Assembly: GCF_000787815.1 (NCBI RefSeq)
Contig: NZ_BBPO01000049.1
Location: forward strand, 1 to 54,468
Direction: 5' to 3'
DNA: 54,468 nt
DNA from: Streptacidiphilus neutrinimicus
GTDB lineage: Bacteria; Actinomycetota; Actinomycetes; Streptomycetales; Streptomycetaceae
Below, piece by piece: positions 23,789 to 25,349 of the stretch. The translations under genes and the position numbers were made by a program. Position 1 is the first letter of the stretch, and each line of letters starts with the position of its first letter. The notes under the pieces were generated by a model. That model worked only from the letters and a program-made list of their open reading frames with translations, did not search any database and had not been told where the DNA came from.

Positions 23789-23804
23789 ATCTCAGATCTG
23801 AGAT
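23789..23804. promoter_or_regulatory. Perfect 16-bp palindrome at the HTH-MurA promoter
   Basis: ATCTCAGATCTGAGAT is fully self-complementary. It ends on the first base of a TAGTGT hexamer (23804-23809), which starts 13 nt before the GTG at 23817. A protein bound here would cover the -10 and transcription start, so self-repression by the HTH of the encoded protein is plausible. Confidence 0.6.
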
Positions 23805-23816
23805 AGTGTGAGCCGT

Positions 23817-25349
23817 GTGACTGACGACTACCTCGTACGCATCGGCAAGCTCATCCGTACCGCCCGACAGCACAAGGGCCTGACTCAGGCCGAACTGGCG
23901 GAGGCGCTGACCACCAGTCAGAGCGCCGTGAACCGGATGGAGCGCGGTCAGCAGAATCTCAGCCTTGAGATGATCGCCCGAATCGGTGAGGCGCTCGACA
24001 GCGAGATCGTCTCCCTCGGGTACGCCGGGCCGATGCACCTGCGGGTCACCGGCGGGCGGCGCCTCACCGGCGCGATCGACGTGCGCAGCAGCAAGAACGC
24101 CGGCGTCGCCCTGCTGTGCGCGTCGCTGCTCACCACCGGCCGCACGACGCTGCGCCAGGTCGCGCGGATCGAGGAGATCTACCGCATCCTCGAGGTCCTG
24201 ACCAGCATCGGCGTCAAGGCACGCTGGATCAACAACGGCAACGACCTCGAGCTCACCCCGCCGGCCAGGCTCGACCTCGACGCCATGGACGCCGACGCCG
24301 CGCGTCGCACCCGCAGCGTGCTGATGCTGCTCGGCCCGCTGATGCACCTGGAGCCGCACTTCAAGCTCCCCTACGCGGGCGGCTGCGACCTCGGCACCCG
24401 GACCGTCGGCCCGCACCTGGCCGCGCTGCGCCAGTTCGGCCTGCGCGTCAACGCGACCGACGGCCACTACCACGCCGACGTCGAGCCCGGCGTCGCACCC
24501 GGCCGCGCCATCGTGCTGACCGAGCGCGGGGACACCGTCACCGAGAACGTGCTGCTCGCGGCCGCCCGCCACCCGGGCGTCACGGTCATCCGCAACGCCA
24601 GCCCGAACTACATGGTCCAGGACCTCTGCTTCTACCTGGAGCGGCTCGGCGTCAAGGTCGAGGGCATCGGCACCACGACGCTGACCGTCCACGGCGTGGA
24701 GAAGATCGACAGCGACGTCGATTACGCCCCCGCCGAGGACCCGGTCGAGGCGATGAGCCTGCTGGCCGCGGCCGTGGTCACCTCCTCGGAGCTGACGATC
24801 CGCCGGGTGCCGATCGAGTTCCTTGAGATCGAGCTCTCCGTGCTGGAGGAGATGGGCCTCGACTACGACCGCAGCGAGGAGTACCTCGCCCGCAACGGCC
24901 GCACCCGCCTCACCGACCTGACGATCCGCCCTTCCAAGCTGACCGCGCCCGCGGACAAGATCCACCCGATGCCGTTCCCCGGCATCAACATCGACAACGT
25001 GCCCTTCTTCGCCGCGATCGCGGCGGCCGCGCACGGCGACACGCTCATCCACGACTGGGTCTACGACAACCGCGCGATCTACCTCACCGAGCTCAACCGC
25101 CTCGGTGCCAACGTCAAGCTCCTCGACCCCCACCGCGTCCTCGTCCAGGGCCCGACGACGCGCTGGCGCGCCTCGGAGATGATGTGCCCGCCCGCCCTGC
25201 GCCCCGCCGTGGTCGTCCTCCTCGCGATGCTCGCCTCCGAGGGCACCTCCGTGCTCCGCAACGTCTACGTGATCAACCGCGGCTACGAGGACCTCGCCGA
25301 ACGCCTCAACTCCATCGGCGCCCGGATCGAGACCTTCCGCGACATCTGA
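23817..25349 (+). CDS. MurA-like enolpyruvyl transferase fused to an Xre-type HTH
   Basis: A 510-residue fusion. Residues about 5-62 form an Xre/Cro-type helix-turn-helix (IGKLIRTARQHKGLTQAELA, then TSQSAVNRMERGQQNLS). Residues about 72-508 are an EPSP-synthase/MurA fold: GGRRLTGAIDVRSSKNAGVA, the loop Cys in YAGGCDLGTRTVGPHL near 188 (site of fosfomycin attack in MurA), and NIDNVPFFAAIAAAAHG near 400. The enzyme part would transfer enolpyruvate to UDP-GlcNAc, the first peptidoglycan step. A palindrome overlaps its -10. GTG 23817 fits a leaderless start; GTG 23808 is an alternative. Whether it is a regulator, an enzyme or both is open. Confidence 0.85.
   Translation: MTDDYLVRIGKLIRTARQHKGLTQAELAEALTTSQSAVNRMERGQQNLSLEMIARIGEALDSEIVSLGYAGPMHLRVTGGRRLTGAIDVRSSKNAGVALLCASLLTTGRTTLRQVARIEEIYRILEVLTSIGVKARWINNGNDLELTPPARLDLDAMDADAARRTRSVLMLLGPLMHLEPHFKLPYAGGCDLGTRTVGPHLAALRQFGLRVNATDGHYHADVEPGVAPGRAIVLTERGDTVTENVLLAAARHPGVTVIRNASPNYMVQDLCFYLERLGVKVEGIGTTTLTVHGVEKIDSDVDYAPAEDPVEAMSLLAAAVVTSSELTIRRVPIEFLEIELSVLEEMGLDYDRSEEYLARNGRTRLTDLTIRPSKLTAPADKIHPMPFPGINIDNVPFFAAIAAAAHGDTLIHDWVYDNRAIYLTELNRLGANVKLLDPHRVLVQGPTTRWRASEMMCPPALRPAVVVLLAMLASEGTSVLRNVYVINRGYEDLAERLNSIGARIETFRDI

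Follow-up and report, generated by a model that had tools for sequence, protein, structure and literature searches.

The DNA analyzed here (the window) is a 54,468-nt stretch of Streptacidiphilus neutrinimicus, a single contig of an 8.4-Mb genome. At 23817–25349 on the forward strand it carries a gene, running from GTG to TGA, whose 510-residue product joins an Xre-type helix-turn-helix (HTH) domain to a complete MurA fold. The HTH domain, of the Xre/Cro-C1 type, occupies residues 1–68 (23817–24020, forward strand) and contains the recognition-helix motif TSQSAV; the HTH_3 profile matches residues 16–67 of the 513-residue open reading frame (E = 3.9e-13). The enolpyruvyl transferase (MurA) domain follows at residues 75–510 (24039–25346, forward strand), and EPSP_synthase (PF00275) covers residues 80–500 of the same frame with its full profile (E = 1.8e-45). 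An AlphaFold2 model of the fusion (mean pLDDT 88) contains HTH helices at residues 3–19, 24–30, 35–42, and 50–59 and the MurA domain, with a low-confidence linker at residues 61–70, and a Foldseek search against the PDB returned MurA structures as top matches, with a TM-score by target of about 0.9. The full-length PF00275 match and the Foldseek result both give the complete enolpyruvyl transferase fold that a MurA should have. The Xre-type HTH and the complete MurA-like fold proposed in a first-pass annotation are borne out. Orthologues were compared to choose the start: the preferred GTG at 23817 lies 12 nt past the palindrome described below, and the first in-frame GTG is at 23808. The closest named relative, Streptacidiphilus anmyonensis, shares 98% protein identity.

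Immediately upstream of the gene lies a perfect 16-bp palindrome, ATCTCAGATCTGAGAT (23789–23804), with arms ATCTCA and TGAGAT around a 4-bp spacer, which we refer to as the operator. With up to three mismatches allowed, it has two matches in the window against a mean of 0.06 in shuffled sequences, and none of 100 shuffles reached two. A −10-like box recognized by eye, TAGTGT (23804–23809, forward strand; consensus TANNNT), overlaps the operator by one base and ends 7 nt upstream of the GTG at 23817. Since this distance is so short, the message is probably leaderless. The first-pass annotation had the palindrome covering the −10; it does touch the box, but shares only position 23804 with it. 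When 80 named loci were aligned on the palindrome, they shared the palindrome block and the following TANNNT, the TA and the final T being identical in all 80, while the bases upstream of the site were little conserved and no clear conserved −35 could be found in this alignment.

Absence of the palindrome upstream of orthologues had been named beforehand as the observation that would speak against the proposal. The orthologues did not show it: an exact palindrome precedes 79 of the 80 named ones, the last having one mismatch, and the start codon follows it at 11–13 nt in all 80. Being the 80 best among 591 matches, the named loci lean toward close relatives, a lean that the class-wide set corrects for: 38 of 40 class loci, hand-picked for spread among the 114 class genomes in which a match was found, carry the site with at most two mismatches (18 with none, 14 with one, six with two), and the remaining two have no recognizable site (five and six mismatches). 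Within the genus (13 loci in 12 genomes) the arms are exact in 10 loci and have one mismatch each in the other three; the palindrome is also exact in 23 of 23 further family loci, taken as the next best matches. Random 150-bp windows from the flanks contain a site with up to two mismatches in 2 of 578 and 3 of 1452 cases, and with up to three in 19 of 578 and 24 of 1452, which makes a site with three mismatches weak evidence by itself. The operator on the fusion's own promoter is conserved in orthologues of many families, and the gene combines the HTH_3 domain and the conserved palindromic operator on its own promoter that are expected of an Xre/Cro-C1 autoregulator.

The same site is close to exclusive to this gene. 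A search of the host genome for the arms with a free spacer, one of the checks proposed at the outset, gave exactly two occurrences in 8.4 Mb, at 23789 and 23956, both belonging to the fusion gene. Sixty-one family genomes contain 48 exact sites, of which 38 lie at the fusion promoter, five within the gene, and five elsewhere, and the reversed control pattern does not occur in them (site positions were compared with fusion loci by eye, and two were confirmed by reading the loci). A fusion match is present in 43 of the 61, and 38 of these have the exact promoter site; among the other five, three have one mismatch and one has two (by eye), and the fifth falls outside the loci read. Of the 18 family genomes that lack the fusion, a single one contains an exact site, which precedes a gene that by eye is MarR-like. 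A slightly wider pattern applied to 36 genomes, mostly of other families, placed 25 of 31 sites at the fusion promoter and six elsewhere. Most genomes, then, have the operator at the fusion gene only. At the looser threshold of up to two mismatches in the arms, the host genome has 55 sites per strand versus six for the reversed pattern, a difference that base composition may explain.

Family f33 revealed what happens to the operator when the HTH is lost. A protein of the fusion clade is present in 112 of the 119 f33 genomes searched, and the start region was read in 54 of the 112: the 30 closest to the G545 protein (including locus L373, read by eye), 20 picked from the rest, and four read earlier. 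All 49 genomes whose HTH is intact (by eye) keep the operator, 48 with at most two mismatches and one with three. All five with a degenerate or missing HTH lack it. Four of these (G545, G1101, G1075, and G373) have a degenerate recognition helix, and the fifth, G1061, has no HTH ahead of the enzyme domain and an in-frame stop codon shortly before that domain. G545 and G373 are also the two operator-less loci of the class set, in which unrelated letters stand in place of the TSQSAV of the recognition helix. Since G1118 and G416, near relatives of the two loss groups, retain both HTH and operator, we count two independent losses and not five, with the enzyme domain kept in each. This joint loss, set against the retention of the site wherever the HTH is intact, means that the HTH of the fusion very probably reads the palindromic operator.

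The second exact occurrence in the host genome, ATCTCAGCCTTGAGAT (23956–23971), lies 167 bp past the operator, in the part of the gene that encodes the HTH. Both the window and its near relatives have it as an exact dyad; most other Streptomyces-family loci keep one half-site, by way of the rare leucine codon CTT, which is used at this place in 76 of 81 genes versus 37 of 4588 other leucine codons of the same genes. Across the 80 named loci, 166–168 bp separate this place from the operator, or nearly 16 turns of the helix, and members of the Streptomyces family may use it to assist the operator by looping or blocking. As a universal feature the intragenic site was rejected: among the 37 class loci in which the motif could be read, CTT is present in 5 of 5 from families f1 and f17 and in 0 of 32 from other families. 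The f1 and f17 sequences are close in the tree, so that shared ancestry explains part of the retention. Another rare codon, CGT at Arg14, is likewise retained by 57 of the 81 genes, which leaves the codon argument for a function of the half-site suggestive.

The enzyme domain has the residues needed for catalysis. K93, N94, R166, C190, R195, D393, R419, R462, and R488 are invariant among 29 diverse clade sequences aligned, and these Lys-Asn, Cys, Asp, and Arg positions, mapped by alignment with canonical MurA as had been suggested, are presumably the MurA catalytic residues. They include the loop Cys that the first-pass annotation had seen, residue 190 in GGCDLGTR (codon TGC, 24384–24386, forward strand), which we take to be the equivalent of Cys115 of the Enterobacter cloacae enzyme. 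The fusion passes the cut-off of the NCBIfam MurA subfamily NF006873 (313.4 against 297) and scores below that of the equivalog TIGR01072 (303.5 against 392.7 bits), for which reason we describe it as a MurA-clade enzyme and not as a TIGR01072 equivalog. Several positions differ from canonical MurA throughout the clade (REPE has become SPNYM-like, the Arg of PDRIE is Pro, and the Asp before LR is Ala), and kinetics or even the substrate could therefore differ.

Genomes in which the fusion clade supplies the only MurA bear on the same question. Among 36 genomes chosen from the fusion-bearing class genomes, with the two pieces in G373 counted as one, the clade's protein is the sole TIGR01072 match (E up to 1e-15) in 23: 16 of 18 in f26, 2 of 2 in f42, 5 of 5 in f33, and 0 of 11 elsewhere. 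When 40 f33 genomes were taken as a second set, the clade's protein was present in 36 and the sole match in 27; two of the other nine have a broken or weak second match and seven a full canonical MurA, and the four genomes without the clade's protein have two canonical MurAs each. In this set G373 is again counted as one and the G1061 copy is without an HTH; G416, G545, and G373 belong to both sets. Because peptidoglycan needs a MurA, the clade's protein very probably supplies it in the sole-MurA genomes and is very probably a working MurA enzyme. The clade-specific residues would allow for a change of substrate, but these genomes make a loss of MurA function unlikely. In one fusion-bearing genome (G1063:C1:2441054–2441990) the second MurA match is in two pieces without the middle, which looks like an ordinary MurA in decay next to the fusion. 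The gene of G373 (L231, L277), which has lost the operator and whose HTH is degenerate, provides that genome's sole MurA match and lies in two frames, a split that is either genuine or a sequencing fault; genes split between two frames or stretches are also found in G013 (a member of the genus set), G121, and G488.

Canonical MurA has the fold and catalytic residues in common with the fusion, but is only about 30% identical, lacks the HTH, and falls apart in phylogeny. In a tree of 46 rows, which left out the partial L293 and a diverged transferase on C177, 25 fusion-clade proteins form one clade (97/96 support) on a long stem, apart from 19 canonical MurAs. Searching 396 genomes of the phylum with only the enzyme domain gave 24 rows (E up to 1e-60), which were either at least 66% identical (fusion clade) or at most 34% (canonical), with nothing between. 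The fusion is matched in 265 of 297 Streptomyces-family genomes and 114 of 394 class genomes; the 32 family genomes with no match evidently live without it. The second canonical murA that the first-pass annotation advised looking for was found twice over, as the host genome contains two HTH-less MurA genes that both exceed the TIGR01072 cut-off. One (L085:4739–6019, G000:C115) lies beside ATP-synthase-like genes (by eye) and has Asp in place of the loop Cys (GGDAIG), which would predict fosfomycin insensitivity, whereas the fusion keeps the Cys; the other adjoins an HU gene. The transferase on C177 (L087:5220–6635, G000:C177) has GHKH where others have GAKN or SSKN, in a setting that by eye resembles a biosynthetic gene cluster.

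Four Nonomuraea loci (L145, L152, L159, and L164) carry fusion genes about 81% identical to that of the window. L145, the one of the four included in the tree, groups with L101 from the Streptomycetaceae, which suggests horizontal transfer. A mobile origin of the gene was rejected: only two plasmid records matched, both large replicons, and the 25 phage records all fell below 60% identity, the 20 matches listed reaching 31% at most. Across the loci compared, gene neighborhoods show no conserved operon that would point to a pathway. Aconitase adjoins the fusion in one family genome (L079), and a protein of the same cluster is nearby in L078; by eye, glycerophosphodiesterase-like, transporter-like, and RbpA-like genes lie downstream of the fusion in f26, and dxs-like and RNase D-like genes lie near it in f33.

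Taken together, we read the fusion as bifunctional, being both a working MurA (UDP-GlcNAc enolpyruvyl transferase) and, through its N-terminal Xre HTH, a protein that would bind a dedicated palindrome touching its own −10. The protein would bind most likely as a dimer, beside the −10, and when plentiful would exclude RNA polymerase, so that the enzyme would cap its own supply. With autorepression as the best reading, we put the probability of a self-regulating bifunctional MurA at roughly 0.85. Its parts differ in strength. That the fusion binds its operator specifically seems highly likely and is the one part on which the sequence bears directly; that it represses its own gene when bound is likely, judging by the position of the operator. 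UDP-GlcNAc, PEP, or UDP-MurNAc would put the MurA domain in an open or closed state and in this way change the affinity for DNA; such gating by a ligand is a tentative proposal, to which we give slightly less than an even chance. About as tentative is the joint reading in which ordinary MurA was displaced in whole lineages and the Streptomyces family uses a second operator within the coding sequence. The self-regulating MurA of the first-pass annotation stands as far as the fusion, its intact active site, the operator on its own promoter, and the coupled loss of HTH and operator carry it.

The opposite sign, in which the fusion activates its own gene or either activates or represses it depending on a ligand, is unlikely. 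The weak −10 and the lack of a clear conserved −35 do resemble some activated promoters, but the operator touches and overlaps the −10 of the fusion promoter, where activators seldom sit. Moreover, the gene persists as the only MurA found where HTH and operator have been lost, and activation is thus not needed there.

We consider it very unlikely that the palindrome serves another regulator, with the HTH of the fusion acting elsewhere or only dimerizing the enzyme, although other regulators are known upstream of the gene in Streptomyces. By its sequence the fusion is the Streptomyces MurA2 (SCO5998, sven5810, vnz_28735). The available passages of the relevant papers report a BldM-WhiI footprint in the promoter region of S. 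venezuelae murA2 (PMC4125116), a SigB promoter of SCO5998 (PMC8346170), a predicted DmdR1 site between SCO5998 and the adjoining aconitase gene SCO5999 (PMC12161575), and overexpression of murA2 that did not reproduce the whiI overexpression phenotype (PMC11005364). In these same passages of all four accounts MurA2 is a plain transferase, with neither HTH nor operator mentioned. The published SCO5998 promoter (PMC8346170, as given in its available text) agrees at 34 of 36 bases with a stretch ahead of the S. tendae fusion; this SigB-dependent promoter lies at L156:3646–3681, 355 bp upstream of the start, with a short open reading frame (by eye) between it and the palindrome. As the BldM-WhiI and SigB inputs act upstream, autorepression would not be the only control in Streptomyces. 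Against the palindrome belonging to such a regulator, operator and HTH were lost together in two lineages while the enzyme stayed, and the exact site is found in only one of 18 fusion-less family genomes, at another gene, and is rare elsewhere. The available text of PMC12565409 and PMC4021200 contains nothing on the fusion or its operator, and none of the matches listed from the open-licence PMC literature described the fusion, the operator, or the motif letters, which may still have been published.

Less probable again is a former enzyme turned pure sensor-repressor in the manner of BzdR. The clade-specific changes at several MurA positions and the TIGR01072 score below the equivalog cut-off would fit such a history, but the catalytic residues are invariant in 29 sequences, the protein is the sole MurA in 23 of 36 and 27 of 36 genomes, and two lineages have kept the enzyme domain after losing the HTH. 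Least credible is an RNA hairpin in place of a protein site. The arms in the window are complementary, so that a transcript started at a promoter further upstream might fold on them, but the palindrome lies upstream of the inferred leaderless transcript start, the arms do not fully pair in several loci (e.g., AACTCA/TGAGAT and ATCTCA/TGAGTT), and the palindrome vanishes along with the HTH.

Known control of MurA in other bacteria is mostly post-translational. A MurA equipped with a DNA-binding domain and a dedicated operator would bring feedback directly to transcription; the fusion is matched in 265 of the 297 Streptomyces-family genomes, and in other families it is often the only MurA found. 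Relatives that lost HTH and operator and kept the enzyme provide a natural control for a clean test of autorepression.

Judged by the domains and operator present, the fusion would be a further case of a known kind, that of enzymes doubling as repressors. PutA, NadR, and BirA each combine enzyme activity with repression of transcription by way of a DNA-binding domain, and the likeness to the fusion lies in this pairing of enzyme and repressor; their pathways are different ones, and to our knowledge none of them acts on peptidoglycan precursors. By analogy, the nearest architecture is that of BzdR, whose HTH is also of the Xre type. The available text on BzdR describes an N-terminal DNA-binding domain, a linker, and an enzyme-derived, shikimate-kinase-like domain, and holds the loss of enzyme activity to have been essential for becoming a regulator (PMC3602430). 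Here the two part ways: in the sole-MurA genomes the enzyme of the fusion must still work.
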